A DNA stretch of 52,127 nucleotides, taken from positions 1 through 52,127 of the forward strand of contig JAMDHS010000119.1 in NCBI GenBank assembly GCA_029717555.1, read 5' to 3'. Below are positions 25,262-48,527 of the stretch, in pieces. The translations under genes were made by a program, and so were the position numbers. This stretch comes from Peribolospora baueri. Lineage: Eukaryota; Basidiomycota; Peribolosporomycetes; Peribolosporales; Peribolosporaceae. The notes beneath the pieces were generated by a model. It ran no database searches and was not told where the DNA came from. It was given only the letters and a program-made list of their open reading frames with translations. Positions within the stretch are counted from its first letter, which is position 1. Each line of letters begins with the position of its first letter.

Positions 25262-26525
25262 TTAAACAAAAGCTTGGCCGTACTTTTCGTCAATGCGACG
25301 GAAGCGGACCTCCTCCGCGCGTGCGTTCATGACGGCGACGGTGATGAGGAAGAGGGATGCTTGGATGGCTCCAAAGCCAAAGACCTGCGTCGCAGAGATG
25401 AGCCACAGATGAGACGCATAGTAAGCAAGCAAGTACGGTCAGATGAAGCGGCGTGGACTTCTCCTGCTCTTTCTTTTCAGTCACGCTCACCGAACTGATG
25501 GACGAGACGCGAGTCAGACAAGACAGGCCGGGGAGGGTGAGCAAGACACGATGTTGTCAGAAAAGACCCAAAAACCCGACAAAAAAGGCAAATGTCGGCC
25601 TGCGCCTTCGTTCCGGTCGGTCGGCGCCGCGCTGGAGGGGTCGGTCAGGCTCACCTGAACACGTTGTTCAGCGTGTAATCGGCCGCAGCGGTGATCTGGT
25701 TGACGCAGCCGGGGGCCATCATAGCGGCCATGGGCTGTGCGCAGAAGCCGGCGAGGGTGGTGAAAGCGCCTGCGGTGGTTGCGTTGAAGTATCCGCAACA
25801 GGAAAGCTGGCAGAGGGCAAGCGGAAGCGGAAAGGGGCTGTCGAAGTGAGGATCGAAAGAGGGGGGTAGACGGTTGAGAAGCGCGGGAGCGTACCTTGTC
25901 CTGAAGGCCTTGCTGGACCTCTGGCGTGGCTAGGACCCACAGATTGAAGTAATCGGACCGCTCAGTGAGGGTGAAGACCCAGACGATGCAGCTGTGCGTC
26001 AAGAAGGGGGAGAGAGAGTCGATTCAACGGCTGATCCTTCTCTGACGCCGTGGAACGGACGACGACCCACCCGACGACAACAGTGGCGAGAGCGACGGCG
26101 ATGAGGCTGATGTTGAAGGCGAAGAAGACGGCGCGGTGGCGGTAGAGGGCGATGGCGGCGAGAGAGAGGAGCCAGGAGGCGAGGACGAGGGAACCGAGGA
26201 CGAGTCCATCTGGTCGGAGAAGGGCGGAAGCGAGCCATTTCATGATCGATTCAATACGGAAGGCTTGGACGGGACGACGCTCTCACCTGTCAAGAACCTG
26301 TGAGGAAGGACAAACTTGAGTTGAACGCCGATGCGCTGCTCCGACTCCCACACGAGGGGTACGACGATGAGGATGACTGCGGAGGTAAAGTATAGCTGTG
26401 GGAGCGGCCAGAGTCGGGGTGCAATGAGCGCAGAGGCTGCTGGGCATTTATCATTCTCTTGGCGGGAGAGACTCACAAAGTCGAGAAAGGACCAAACGGC
26501 GAGGAGCCTACGGGAGATTCCCATT
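25262..26525 (-). CDS. Tetraspanin-like membrane protein
   Basis: Four-pass membrane scaffold protein. The start at 26525 gives MGISRRLLAVWSFLDF; after an intron TM1 follows, YFTSAVILIVVPLVW (about 26350-26400). Later exons give GLVLGSLVLASWLLSLAAIALYRHRAVFFAFNISLIAVALATVVVG (TM2 and TM3, 26080-26220) and CIVWVFTLTERSDYFNLW (25920-25995). An extracellular loop carries the hallmark LSCCGYF (about 25790-25810) with further cysteines in GFCAQP and APGCVNQ. TM4 is FGAIQASLFLITVAVMNA (25320-25385), and the tail EVRFRRIDEKYGQAFV ends at the stop 25262-25264. CCG plus two later cysteines fits the tetraspanin large loop. Fungal tetraspanins such as Pls1 act in penetration and polarised growth; which paralogue this is cannot be said. 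It is convergent with the PAP2 gene. Confidence 0.8.
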
Positions 26526-41640: not shown

Positions 41641-42343
41641 ATGGCCCTTCTTCTCAACAAGCCTATCGCCGCTGCCGACTACAATACCCTGCCCTACATT
41701 ACCGACGCGGCAGGCGCTTGGGAAGAATTTAGTGAGGGAGCTCGCCAAGCTGGAGGAGATCTTCAGGCGCCATGCAGCCACCGAGCACTTCTCCCTTCAC
41801 CTTGTACACAAACACTTCGACATCGAGGAGGACAACATCATGATATCGTACCAGGTGGACGTGGGCGAGGGCGAAGTAGGGGAGGTTTGCAGACCTAGAC
41901 CCTCCTTGCCCGGCAGCGAGCTGCAAGGGCACCTATACCTCGTCACTCCGGAAGGAAGGCTGCAGGCCTACGAATACACACCGAACGACAGTGAGGGCGT
42001 CGAGGGGTTCGACGACTTCCTCGATGAGTTCGTGCGCTTCATGGTAGCCTCTCCCGCCGGTCGTGCCCTCTCCCTCGAGCTGAGCAACGACAGGACCGGC
42101 AGACTGGTGAGGGAATTTGAGCTGCCCGAGCATCGCTCCACCGCCCTTCTCCCTGTGCGGTTCTTTGTAGACGACGCGCCCCCAACGGTGATAACAAACC
42201 GCGTCTTCAGGGGAGGACTTACCACGCACGCCCAGCATTGCCTGTGGATGATAAGAAGTGAACGTCACAAAATCTACTGGACCAAGTGCGGAAAGCAAGC
42301 AGTACAGCCTGCCGCTTTGCAGCGCATTCTCGAGGTCTTCTAG
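41641..42343 (+). CDS. Conserved-looking hypothetical protein, frame change near start
   Basis: No function is known to me. The favoured start at 41641 reads MALLLNKPIAAADYNTLPYI, then TDAAGAWEE, after which the frame moves by one base near 41730 into VRELAKLEEIFRRHAATEHF, SLHLVHKHFDIEEDNIMISY. It continues with HLYLVTPEGRLQAYEYTPND, a helical part (FDDFLDEFVRFM), FELPEHRSTALLPVRFFVDD and LQRILEVF before the stop at 42341-42343. The block HLVHKHFDIEEDNIM resembles a short motif in fungal proteins of unknown role. An alternative start at about 41606 keeps one frame throughout but gives a less natural N-terminus. No intron explains the change, so a one-base extra A at 41730 (TTTAGTGAG) is suspected. 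Confidence 0.6.
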
Positions 42344-43040
42344 GGGGCCACTGCTGTTGCCGTCCCGCCTCGAAACACGAATCCCTCGGCCAGGGCCGCC
42401 CAGATGTCCAGCGAACGTACCTTCCCACCTCCGCAGTCCCTCCTGTATTCATTGCCCCGCCCCCTCACCTGCACCACTCCTTTTATCGAGCTATGTGTAC
42501 GTATTTGAAGATCCCTTCTGCGTGTCCTCGTCCGGGAAGATGCAGCGCCCCTTCTCGAGCTTGCTTTGCAACGTTTATGCTGCAAGTGACAGAATGGGAC
42601 AATGGGGAGAAGACAAAGGAATGAGAAAGTTTGATAGTGACAAAGGGAGGGAAGAAAGGTACCGAGGAGTGCGGAGTGCGTTCGGTCATTCCTGCACGCA
42701 GCCGATGGCTGTCCGCCCGCCCTGCCCCTTAGCGACACTGTGCAGTGGTACTATCGTTTTATTAACATCGCCGGCGGACCATGCACGGGCCGTCTGCCGC
42801 AGCCGTCCGATTTCCACGCGCCGAAGTCTTTCCTGGCTGGCCGCGGCGGCGCGGCGGAGGGAGGTTCCGAAAGGGAGGGAGGGGGGTACAAGGAAAGAAA
42901 GAAGAATCAAGTCGTCCGCCGTCGTCGACACGCTCGTTTCCTCCTTGACCTTCTCTCACCTCATCTGTTCGTCCAGCTCTACCTTTCCGGCCGTCCGTCT
43001 CGCAAGCGTAGGCTCCCCGCCCACACCGCACCGCACCGCC
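42344..43040. other. Intergenic and promoter region, no gene seen
   Basis: About 700 bases upstream of the ankyrin gene. Open frames here are shadows and carry no motif. Confidence 0.4.
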
Positions 43041-43865
43041 ATGACTTCCTCGACCCGCCCCGAGGGCCGCAGGCCGACGGCGGACGACATCGACGACCTC
43101 CTCCTCTCAGCGCGTTACGGCGACCTGGACGACGTGCGCACGGCCGTCGAACAGGTCTTTGGCGGCGGCGACGGCGGCGATGGGCTCGCGGCGGTTGTGA
43201 ACGAGGGAGGGAACGGGCCGTTGCATATGGCGGCTGCTAATGGACATGCTGGTGGGTGGTGTGGTGGTGCTTGGGGGGGGCCATCAAGTATGGACAAGAG
43301 GAGCGGGGATGGCGATGTGAATGGTAATGTAATGTGCGACTCACCCCCGTTATTCTGTCCTTTCTTTCCACTCGGAATTCCCAACGGTCATCCCATCCCA
43401 TCAGACGTGGTATCCTACCTCCTCCCACACCTCTCTCTCCCTTCCCTCCTTCTCAAGAACGCATCCGGAAACACCGCGCTGCACTGGGCGGCGGTGAACG
43501 GACACCTGGCGGTCGTGCGCGCTATTGTCGACCGCGTTGACGAGCTCTCGCCGGCGTCGCCGGAAGGAGCACGCGGCGAGGGAGACAAGAGCAAGGACAA
43601 GGACAAGGACGAGAAGGAGAAGGAGGACGAAGAAGGGGAGGAAGACGAGGAGGCATCCCGCCGTCGTCCATGGGATGTGCCAAATGCGGCAGGCCGGGGG
43701 CCGATGAGCGAGGCGCAGATGGCGGAGAAGGAGGAAGTGGTTCGATTTTTGCTGGATAGGATGACGGGCGGGGAGGAGGGGAGTGGAGCGGACGCGGAGA
43801 GGCGGCGAGAGGGAGAGGGTGGGGCGCTTGCGGACGGGGTAGAGAAGCTCAAGGTGGACGGTTGA
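43041..43865 (+). CDS. Ankyrin-repeat protein, Yar1-like
   Basis: Yar1 in yeast is the dedicated chaperone of ribosomal protein uS3. Exons 43041-43251 and 43405-43865 sum to 672 bases (223 residues). The intron (GTGGGT to CATCAG) splits the Asp codon in ANGHADVVSYLLPHL. The N-terminus DDIDDLLLSARYGDLDDVRT is followed by ankyrin units: GNGPLHMAAANGHADVVSYL, and GNTALHWAAVNGHLAVVRAI, then the partial AEKEEVVRFLLDRM. A charged insert of Lys/Asp/Glu (43586-43650) separates them. The C-terminus is acidic and low-complexity. Size, two central repeats and the AAGRGPMSEA block fit Yar1; the assignment is likely, not certain. Confidence 0.78.
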   Translation: MTSSTRPEGRRPTADDIDDLLLSARYGDLDDVRTAVEQVFGGGDGGDGLAAVVNEGGNGPLHMAAANGHAGGWCGGAWGGPSSMDKRSGDGDVNGNVMCDSPPLFCPFFPLGIPNGHPIPSDVVSYLLPHLSLPSLLLKNASGNTALHWAAVNGHLAVVRAIVDRVDELSPASPEGARGEGDKSKDKDKDEKEKEDEEGEEDEEASRRRPWDVPNAAGRGPMSEAQMAEKEEVVRFLLDRMTGGEEGSGADAERRREGEGGALADGVEKLKVDG

Positions 43866-43995
43866 GCTTCCTGGCCTGCAATACCAGCCACTTCACACCC
43901 ACTCCACCTCACCCCCGCCTTTACTCGTCTTCCTTATACACGAGGCATTGCACGGCCTCTCGCATCCGTCAAGTGGCCTCATCCGGCGCCACAGT

Positions 43996-44042
43996 CGCAT
44001 CGCATCGCACCGCACCGCATCGCACCGCATCGCACCGCACCG
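43996..44042. repeat. CCGCATCGCA-type minisatellite
   Basis: About five imperfect copies of a CCGCATCGCA/CCGCACCGCA decamer, downstream of the ankyrin gene. Confidence 0.8.
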
Positions 44043-44526: not shown

Positions 44527-45061
44527 ACGAGGAGCAGACGATAGCGGTTTCAGAAGAGAACGGGCGGAGGGCAACGGGGGCGGAACAGGGTACGATCGGA
44601 ACAAACGATGCGAGAGACGGGCACGAAGGAGAGGGAGGAGGGGGCGGAAATACCAAGAGCGGGTCGTGTTGGGCTAATGAGGCGGACGACAAGAAGATGG
44701 GCCGGGGCCGGGGGGTTATGGACAAAAAGGCGGGGCGGGAAAGAAGCGGTCGTCGAAGGCGGAGGGAACAGAAAAAAAAAAAAGCCAAAGGCGGCGACGG
44801 CGACGACGACGACGGCGGCGAAGGACGGAACGTGCGCTGAACCAGGTGAACTAGTGGGACGGCGAAGAGGAACGTTCGGGCGACTTGGACGAAGCTGACG
44901 TGAGGGCGGGGAGGCGGGGGGAAGGACGGGGTGTCGACTCGACCGGACTGGACAGATGCACGTGGCCAGGTAAGATAGATGCTACAGCCGGGCCTGATTT
45001 TTTCGTAAGAGGGGCGGGGCGGGCAGACGAAAGGTGGAGGACAGAACGGAGGGAGGGCGCT

Positions 45062-48000
45062 TCATACGCCCGTAGGCCCAGAGCCGGTGCCGAAATCGAG
45101 GAAAGAGCTAAAGTCGGCCGAGTTAAAGTCAAAGTCGAGGTTGCCGATGCCCAGGTCTCCGCCGTAAAGGTTGAGGTCGTCGGAGAGGAACTCTGTCGCG
45201 GAGGAGATCGTCTGCGTTTGAGGTTGCTGCTGCTGGCTCTGAGTCTGATGATTCTGGTTCGCGTTCTGATTCTGGCTCTGGTTCGCGTTCTGGTTCGCAT
45301 TCTGGTTTGGCGGTGGAGGGGCCATGGAGGATTGCGTTGGCGGCGGCGCTGGTGCGGAGGAGGCGGGTGGGGCTTGCGGTTGCGGCGGCTGCGGAGGTTG
45401 CTGGGGCTGCTGAGGCTGTTGAGGTTGTGGAGGCTGTTGAGGCTGCTGAGGCTGAGGAAGTTGCGGCGGAGGTTGAGAACCCACGCCGGTCGAGCTCTTT
45501 CGCTGACGCTTGCGCTCCGGAGGAGAGCCACCTCGGTCGACCTGCAAATGCAGGCACAAAGCGGTTCGGTCAGACGAAACGGGATCAGTGAACAACCTAA
45601 CGGGACTTTCTGCTGCGCCGATTTGCGGGTCCAAACTCACCGGAACGCCACTGGGGGACATTCCCGGCCGAACCACCTGTCAACGGAGGGCCGATGTCGC
45701 GAAGATGAGCGACGCAAGCATGACACGAGAATTAAAGGAGGCGTGGCGCCTATGGAGAACTCACCGATGAGCTGGGAGACATGCCTGGTCGAACAACCTG
45801 TCAAAGAGCGAAGAAGGGGGGGTTTGAGCGACGAGACCGAGCGAAGAGGGGGAGTCGAGCGACGAGACCGCCTATTAGCCCAATGGACAGCTCGAAAGAA
45901 ACGGCCCGCAAGACTTACAGAGCCGCTGGGCGACATGCCCGGTCGGACGACCTGTAGAAGAAGTGAAAAGGGTAAGGACGAGGGGTCAGCGACAAGGCTG
46001 CGCACTTCCACCACCAGACAAGGAGTCACCGCTTGTAAACGCACCGATCCGCCAGGGGACATGCCTGGGCGAAGAATGCCCTGCTGGGCTGCTTGCTGTT
46101 GAGCCGCCTGCTGCTGGGCCGCTTGTTGCTGGGCTGCTTGCTGCTGGGCTGCTTGCTGTTGGGCCTGCTGCTGGTGGAAGAGCAATTGCTGTTGTTGCTG
46201 TTGTTGCTGTTGCTGCTGTTGCATCTGGGCGGGCGACATCTGAGCCGGTGACATGGCGTTCATACTGGACGAGGACAAGGAATGAGAGAATTGCGCCAGC
46301 CATGGATGAGAACTGAAACGGGCGAACGGTGCGAGCGCCCGACTCACCCTGGTCGACTCTGCATCTGCATCTGCTGCTGCTGCTGCTGCTGCTGCATCTG
46401 CATTTGCTGTTGCATCTGCATCTGCTGCTGGTGTGCAATCTGCTGCTGCGCCGCCATCTGCTGCTGAAACCGCTGCGCCTGCGCCTGTGCCAACTGCACC
46501 TGCTTGATCTTTGCGCTGAGGTTGTTCTGTGCGAGCGGGACGAGGAGACGGGGCGGAGTCGACGAGCGAGCATCAGTATACGACGAAACAGGTCGAGAGC
46601 GAACGAGACCGGCGGTCCTCGCCTTCCCAAAACTCACCCTCTCCTCCGCGGTCAAATTGTTCACGTCCCGACCGGTCAAGCCGACGAGGTTCATACAGTG
46701 CGTCAACAGCGCCGCCCCGGCCGGCCTTGCCACGCCCACCACGTTCATGCCCATGTTCGGCGCACTGGATCCAGGACCAGGTCCAGGCCCCAAGCTCTGG
46801 AACATGCCGGGAGTGCTCGGCGTGCCTGGCACCGTCCCCGCGGGACCGCCGCCGCCGCCAGGTCCTGGCCCTCCGTTCTGCGCCGCGGCGGCGGCGGCGG
46901 CGGCGGCGGCGGCCTGCTGTTGATGCTGCTGCTGCTGCTGTTGCTGCTGAGCGGCTTGTTGAGCGGCCTGCTGTTGTCGGAGAATGTTTTCCCGTTGTGC
47001 CTGAGCCGCCTGGATGGCTTCCATCGTCGCAGGTCCTGATCCTGGCCCTGGGCCGGGGCCCGGTGGACCTTGGTTCGGCACTCGCTGCTGGGGCTGTCCG
47101 AAGCCGAGGGGCCCAGGCTGGTGCCCGCCGTGCGGCGGTGGCGGAGCGGGACCTTGCTGCTGCTGACCTGGTTGCGTCTGCTGCTGCTGTGACGGTTGCT
47201 GCTGCATCGCCTGCCCCTGCTGGCCGCCAATCTGCTGCTGCGAAAAGGGCGGCGACTGCGACGGTGGCTGCTGCATTGCCGCACCCTGAGGTCCGATCTG
47301 CTGCTGGACAAAGTGCGGCGAGTGGTGCTGTAACCGCGACGGTCCCGGTTGACCCGGCGGACCGCTCGGGCCACCCATGTGTTGCGGTGGCTGGCCGCCG
47401 GGCTGCTGATGCTGAGCGGCGGCGGCCGCGGCCTGTTGCTGGTGCTGCTGCTGAAGATGGATCGGCGTACCGGGATGAGGGCCCTGTGGTGGCCCCATGT
47501 GCATTGACGTGGGCGTCTGCGGAGGCACCGGCGAAGGGCCGGCGGAACCGTTTTGCATGATCGGCGGCGCGCCTATCATGCCTCCCGAGGCGGCCCCCTG
47601 GCCGACGATCCTGCCTCGCAAGTTGAGCTGGTTCTGGGCGGTCATCCGCTGTGCCTGGACAGCGGAGCGGAGCTTCAATGCCTGGGCCTCGACGTAGGCC
47701 AGGGCATCCTTGCCGTTCTGCGATCCGCCTGAGCGGGCGGTGAAGATGTCCCAGAAGACGGTCCACCACCTGGGACGAGGAAAGGCGGCGGCAGGGTGAG
47801 TGGGCAGGCAGATGGAGGGCGAATTAGGTGATGGACGGATGGACGGAGGGCTCACTCATACAACAAGCCCTGAGGGGCATCGATGGGCACCTGCTGGTCG
47901 GGCAAAACGCCGGCCTCGTTGACGAAAGCCTGTGCGGCCTCCTTGAGGTTTCGTTTTTGACAATAGTCCCAGATGTAGATGTGAAGCCTGAAGGAAGGGA

Positions 48001-48527
48001 GTTAGAAAGAGGCATTTAGCGAACGGAAGACGACACGACGCGTTCTCGGCGTGCGGACACCGACAAGCGCGCGTCCATGGACGCCCAAGCGGGGTCGTAG
48101 ACAAGGCGGCGACGCGGAAGGCACCGGTGGGGCCGCATTCAGGGAGGGCGATCGGGCGCGTGGGCGAGAGCAAAAGCGGTGGTCGGGGCGGCGAGACGAG
48201 GTGGGACACGTGGGACGCGAAGACGCGGGCAGGAAAAAAAACAAAAAAGAAGGAGAAAAGGGGCGAGAAGACAGGGAAGACTCACATCTTGTCGCCGTCC
48301 CATGCCCTGGAGCCGGTGGAAGAGTGACTGGGGTGCATGGAGCCGTTGGCGGCGTGCGCGTGCGGTGGTGGTGGACCTCCTGCTGGCGTGGGCGCGTTGG
48401 CTGCTCCGCCATTGGGAGCGCTGGATGGTGGTGTTGGGCCGGTGCCGGCGGTAGCGACGCCGACGCCGACGCTCGCCGCCGGGGCTGCGGATGCCGGTGT
48501 ACCACCCACGGCGGGAGCTCGGATCAT
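45062..48527 (-). CDS. LisH-domain transcriptional regulator, Flo8/SomA/Adn1-like
   Basis: Nuclear co-regulator of adhesion and development in other fungi. Nine exons on the minus strand: 48527-48286, 47987-47856, 47769-46638, 46526-46348, 46264-46045, 45951-45919, 45797-45765, 45676-45641 and 45541-45062. They sum to 2487 bases (828 residues). The conserved N-terminal block reads KMLHIYIWDYCQKRNLKEAA, QAFVNEAGVLPDQQVP, then GLLYEWWTVFWDIFTARSGG; this is the LisH motif and its WWxxFWDIF extension. The rest is Gln/Pro/Gly-rich with long polyQ tracts, SPAQMSPAQMQ, and four copies of RPGMSP. The tail contains a basic ERKRQRK patch and an acidic end, FLSDDLNLYGGDLGIGNLDF, then DFNSADFSSFLDFGTG, resembling a transactivation region. 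Start 48527 (MIRAPAVGG) is the nearest in-frame ATG; an alternative upstream frame at 48524-48844 (MIAAAAASSSSATPP) could supply another N-terminus by splicing. Confidence 0.9.

Follow-up and report, generated by a model that had tools for sequence, protein, structure and literature searches.

Regulators of the Flo8/Som1 type, which are LUFS proteins, act downstream of protein kinase A in adhesion and filamentation. Flo8, Som1 and SomA have an N-terminal LisH/LUFS domain, which is also found in the product of a nine-exon gene in a 52,127-nucleotide (nt) stretch of DNA from the basidiomycete Peribolospora baueri (contig JAMDHS010000119.1 of assembly GCA_029717555.1, positions 1 to 52,127, hereafter the window). 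A Ser-Pro (SP) pair before a basic stretch in this product resembles, by eye, the SP and KRxR of SomA-type proteins. What would set the product apart from those proteins is its five evenly spaced SP units, three of which lie on mini-exons of their own. We consider it probable, at roughly 0.6, that this array stems from an old tandem duplication of exon plus intron, that it is normally spliced in full, and that the duplication multiplied an SP motif adjoining what is probably the nuclear-localisation signal (NLS) of a LUFS regulator, itself probably of Flo8/Som1 type.

Known systems

The somA gene of Aspergillus fumigatus is reported to have five exons of 486, 152, 1279, 267 and 171 bp, by which lengths none is of mini-exon size, and to produce two splice variants, each of which rescues invasive growth in yeast (PMC4631450). 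In this regard, the sequence-only reading knew of no description, for Flo8/SomA proteins, of a repeat number tuned through splicing. For a repeat array this is not contradicted, in that the matches listed in the open-licence literature searched include no gene of Flo8/Som1 type with an array of repeated mini-exons, and the string RPGMSPS is also absent from that literature, but it has to be qualified by the reported splice variants of somA.

Beyond this family, Davis reportedly described tandemly repeated exons encoding repeats in schistosomes in 1988. The MEG genes of schistosomes are made up of serial short exons (3-81 bp) and vary their products via alternative splicing (PMC10526429). The array described here is real, and it is of a kind already known from these repeated short exons. 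As in the MEG genes, its micro-exons stand in series and keep the frame, being multiples of three in length and of the same phase; unlike the MEG genes, which encode secreted parasite proteins and have long introns, the present gene encodes a probable nuclear regulator, its introns are short and any variation is unproven. A micro-exon switch is also reported for Xlr2 of Trichoderma virens, in a paper which calls functional micro-exons previously undescribed in filamentous fungi and limits earlier experimental tests of them to Schizosaccharomyces pombe (PMC11121469). Common to Xlr2 and the present gene is a micro-exon within a fungal transcription regulator; the difference is that there are here three repeated micro-exons, known from sequence alone.

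Gene model and family

On spliced translation, the joined GT...AG exons of the gene (Table 1) give a single open frame of 828 residues. A LisH motif lies near the N-terminus (PF08513, residues 84-106, 26.1 bits against a cut-off of 21.6 in a Pfam search), and the LUFS region matches four solved chains of SSBP2/SSDP, single-stranded DNA-binding proteins of animals, with E-values of 1.2e-7 to 1.9e-7 in a phmmer search. The query in this search was 97 residues long, of which at most residues 5-61 were aligned, and the repeat array lies outside it. By virtue of the LisH motif and the LUFS match the product is a LUFS-class protein, and we infer that it is probably of the Flo8/Som1 type. Protein-guided scans with a 107-residue LUFS region confirmed none of three viral and none of 47 prokaryotic pattern matches, a result that is uninformative for fungi. 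The assembly contains a second LisH match (contig C139, 106896-106973, plus strand), which scored 40.9 bits as compared to 30.9 bits for the gene in the window when both were placed in one common search.

Table 1. Positions in the window of the LisH/LUFS gene, its repeat units and the introns of the array
Feature	Position	Strand	Description
LisH/LUFS gene	45062..48527	(-)	nine exons, 828 residues
Exons 1 to 9	48527-48286, 47987-47856, 47769-46638, 46526-46348, 46264-46045, 45951-45919, 45797-45765, 45676-45641, 45541-45062	(-)	
Looser upstream unit RPGMNAMSPAQMSP	46231..46355	(-)	RPG/MNAMSPAQMSP, divided at the slash by intron 4 (46347-46265)
Copy A, RPGMSP	46054..46071	(-)	preceded by a Q-rich stretch, at the close of exon 5 (46264-46045)
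Intron 5	45952..46044	(-)	93 nt, multiple of three, no in-frame stop
Mini-exon B, VVRPGMSPSGS	45919..45951	(-)	33 nt, phase 0-0
Intron 6	45798..45918	(-)	121 nt, longest of the array; internal two-copy 31-nt tandem repeat at 45806-45870
Mini-exon C, VVRPGMSPSSS	45765..45797	(-)	33 nt, phase 0-0
Intron 7	45677..45764	(-)	88 nt, in-frame stops
Mini-exon D, VVRPGMSPSGVP	45641..45676	(-)	36 nt, phase 0-0
Intron 8	45542..45640	(-)	99 nt, multiple of three, no in-frame stop
Degenerate unit E, VDRGGSPP, then basic stretch ERKRQR(K)	45500..45541	(-)	opens the last exon; SP serine in the 11-residue register

The repeat array

The peptide RPGMSP occurs four times in the protein, starting at residues 627, 638, 649 and 660, and exact string placement bears out both these copies and the mini-exon coordinates of the sequence-only reading. 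When the degenerate unit E is included, the serines of the SP pairs in units A-E fall at residues 631, 642, 653, 664 and 675, that is, at exact intervals of 11 residues, a spacing which is kept by the one residue more in mini-exon D and the one fewer in unit E. The four introns share their position and phase across the five repeat units, with no intron directly before unit A and none directly after unit E. In the spliced frame all three mini-exons are of phase 0 at both ends, as had been proposed, and it follows from their phase and length that each could be skipped without changing the frame.

Chance is excluded as the origin of the RPGMSP copies, since the composition of the 668-residue tail of the protein predicts only about 0.00015 copies of the peptide there, whereas four are seen. 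At the DNA level, a degenerate RPGMSP pattern has seven matches in the 22.1-Mb assembly, four of them in the array, as against two for a reversed-pattern control; the translations of the remaining three (contigs C79, C107 and C163) look unrelated, and two of these have stops nearby. A further scan looked for pairs of candidate micro-exons of 18-75 nt that are multiples of three in length, of the same phase, no more than 400 nt apart and share a peptide 6-mer, criteria which were chosen after the array had been seen. Of the 16 pairs that it returned in the window, 15 belong to the RPGMSP array (12 of these via alternative false acceptors within exon 5) and one is Ser-rich; in 200 kb of contig C107 it returned a single pair, again Ser-rich. 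The array therefore stands out within the 252 kb scanned, or about 1% of the 22.1 Mb. The only other pair in the window (25941-26106, minus strand) is probably a chance occurrence.

Age and origin of the copies

Over the six pairs that can be formed from copies A-D, the RPGMSP core has 20 synonymous differences and no amino-acid difference. With 31.5 synonymous and 76.5 non-synonymous sites summed over the pairs, the proportions of differing sites are 0.63 (pS) and 0.00 (pN), respectively; for the whole 33-nt units, with D trimmed to its first 11 codons, they are 0.66 and 0.16. Since both introns and synonymous sites have diverged while the core peptide is unchanged, the straightforward reading is that the copies would be old and that the peptide has been conserved. 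It could be argued, from exon calls that are made here on DNA only, that some of the mini-exons are not exons but simply conserved-looking sequence within longer introns. This is highly improbable, in that the core combines many synonymous changes with no amino-acid change, and phase and splice signals fit at the mini-exon boundaries. Frame, splice signals and constraint all point to mini-exons B, C and D being real exons.

The similarity of the exons and their splice sites had been taken as a sign of tandem exon duplication, a proposal which is upheld by the matching exon boundaries and phases, but not by the introns between the copies, which have no clear resemblance to each other. In a comparison of introns 2-8 in all 21 pairings (intron 1, of 298 nt, being omitted for its length), the score of the best pair within the array, introns 5 and 6, was reached by 16 of 200 dinucleotide shuffles and those of the other five pairs by 44 to 200 of the 200. 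Pair 5-6 is nothing special, since intron 3 does not belong to the array and yet gives pairs with equal or better scores (3-6, 11/200; 2-3, 13/200; 3-8, 16/200). An ungapped 60-nt repeat of 73% identity does link the surroundings of B and C; it takes in the exon together with some of the pyrimidine-rich acceptor, and is not taken as proof of intron homology. Such a loss of intron similarity is to be expected if the copies are old.

The same lack of similarity would also suit independent gain of introns at one and the same site in a peptide repeat that was older and at first uninterrupted; for this the exon starts, reading AG/GT in the manner of proto-splice sites, offer some further grounds. 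However, this route requires an intron to have been inserted four times over at the same homologous position and in the same phase, and with pS at 0.63 age accounts for the lost similarity equally well, such that independent gain is considered distinctly unlikely. Tandem exon duplication thus appears to be the best explanation of four same-place introns in five units. In such a scheme, duplication of exon plus intron, probably through unequal crossing-over between similar motifs flanking one intron, would have multiplied an SP motif that in the ancestor already stood next to the probable NLS. The product of the crossing-over would be a micro-exon with the start of the downstream copy and the end of the upstream copy, and the layout of the array, in which A has no intron before it and E none after it, is as expected from crossing-over between motifs that flank a single intron.

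Position next to a putative nuclear-localisation signal

Proline-directed kinases favour S-P sites. The five SP serines, with their regular spacing, stand directly before the stretch ERKRQRK, a putative NLS, where they would most likely serve a proline-directed kinase as a target with several sites, or else form a repeated docking motif, and where either could act on nuclear import or partner binding. A conserved NLS, PSPSKRPRLE, is reported in the SomA-type proteins of filamentous fungi (PMC4631450). The stretch GSPPERKRQRK, whose SP is in the register of the array, looks like the counterpart of this signal, with SP just ahead of KRxR in both, on a by-eye comparison of short stretches.

Splicing of the array

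The donors of introns 5-8 are GTGCGT, GTAAGT, GTGAGT and GTGAGT; among introns 1-4, three donors read GTGAGT and one GTGAGC. CAG ends all eight acceptors. Introns 1-4 measure 298, 86, 111 and 83 nt, as compared to 88-121 nt within the array. The branch-like match of intron 7 is CTCAT only, and likewise that of intron 4, outside the array. In other words, the donors and acceptors of the array resemble those of introns 1-4, and little marks out the mini-exons for skipping. Under intron definition, moreover, exons of 33-36 nt flanked by short introns pose no obstacle to splicing. Presumably, the array is spliced constitutively and in full. Recursive splicing was also considered and rejected, as the exon starts (GTCGTC, GTTGTT, GTGGTT and GTCGAC) are not donor-like past the GT.

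A different view of the array is that mRNAs encode one to four RPGMSP copies, according to which of B, C and D, alone or jointly, are skipped, such that the number of SP sites beside the NLS is tuned by condition. Each mini-exon has a length divisible by three and both starts and ends in phase 0, so that eight out of eight combinations remain in frame. Skipping of one exon needs an intron of 223-247 nt, within the range of the gene given the length of intron 1, while skipping of all three needs one of 503 nt. The reported switch in the regulator Xlr2 (PMC11121469) and the two variants of somA (PMC4631450) offer parallels. Set against this, the splice sites are ordinary, the small size of the exons is no hindrance under intron definition, and symmetric phase is expected of any exon duplication and is alone no evidence of skipping. 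In expressed sequence tags (ESTs) of Ustilago maydis, exon skipping is reported as a minor class, with 12 of 193 splicing events as against 114 of intron retention (PMC2219887), figures that are a fair yardstick only for a similar fungus. Regulated skipping is therefore regarded as unlikely. Somewhat more doubtful again is the fuller proposal that a morphogenesis regulator of Flo8/Som1 type carries more or fewer SP phosphosites next to its NLS depending on how many of the interchangeable mini-exons, from zero to three, are spliced in, giving graded nuclear entry or partner binding, with the copy number also free to vary between lineages by unequal crossing-over.

Retention of the flanking introns is another way in which isoforms could arise. 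Introns 5 and 8, both open in frame, would add 31 residues before or 33 residues after the mini-exons, with intron 8 parting these from the NLS, and retention is the dominant class in the U. maydis ESTs (PMC2219887). Yet the splice sites of both introns are normal, and the probability of their being free of stops in shuffled sequence is 0.47 and 0.34, respectively; intron 3, outside the array, is likewise a multiple of three without in-frame stops (0.56), so the property is unremarkable and isoforms of this type are very unlikely.

Several points weigh against an old duplication that is normally spliced in full. The six pairs of A-D are non-independent and the core is just 18 nt long, and the dinucleotide shuffles leave introns 5-8 without the clear mutual similarity that would prove duplication. 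Leaky splicing is conceivable on account of the donor of intron 5, GTGCGT, which is the least usual, and of the sole CTNAY branch-like match of intron 6, which sits 78 nt from the acceptor. Numerous cases of exon skipping are noted in Cryptococcus neoformans according to PMC2219887, and this speaks for regulated skipping. The link to the NLS, finally, is a by-eye likeness of short basic stretches.

If conserved, the array would mark an SP motif repeated at the nuclear-import end of a LUFS-class regulator; in fungi, members of this class control filamentation and adhesion. In that case it would also be a clean natural example of how exon duplication expands a peptide repeat in a gene with short introns. 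Were the skipping of copies to depend on condition, the array would be a rare fungal case of a repeat number set by splicing; with constitutive splicing, it would be an ordinary curiosity of gene structure with a useful conserved motif.

Neighbouring features

At 42255-43862 of the window, on the plus strand, lies an open frame that matches ankyrin repeats (PF12796, PF00023 and two others) and is convergent with the 3' end of the LisH gene. A 415-codon open frame at 44855-46102 (plus strand) overlaps the array and the last exons in antisense, and is probably a by-product of Q-rich composition. Downstream of the LisH gene, a short tandem repeat of the GATGCGGTGC type is visible by eye at 43995-44040.
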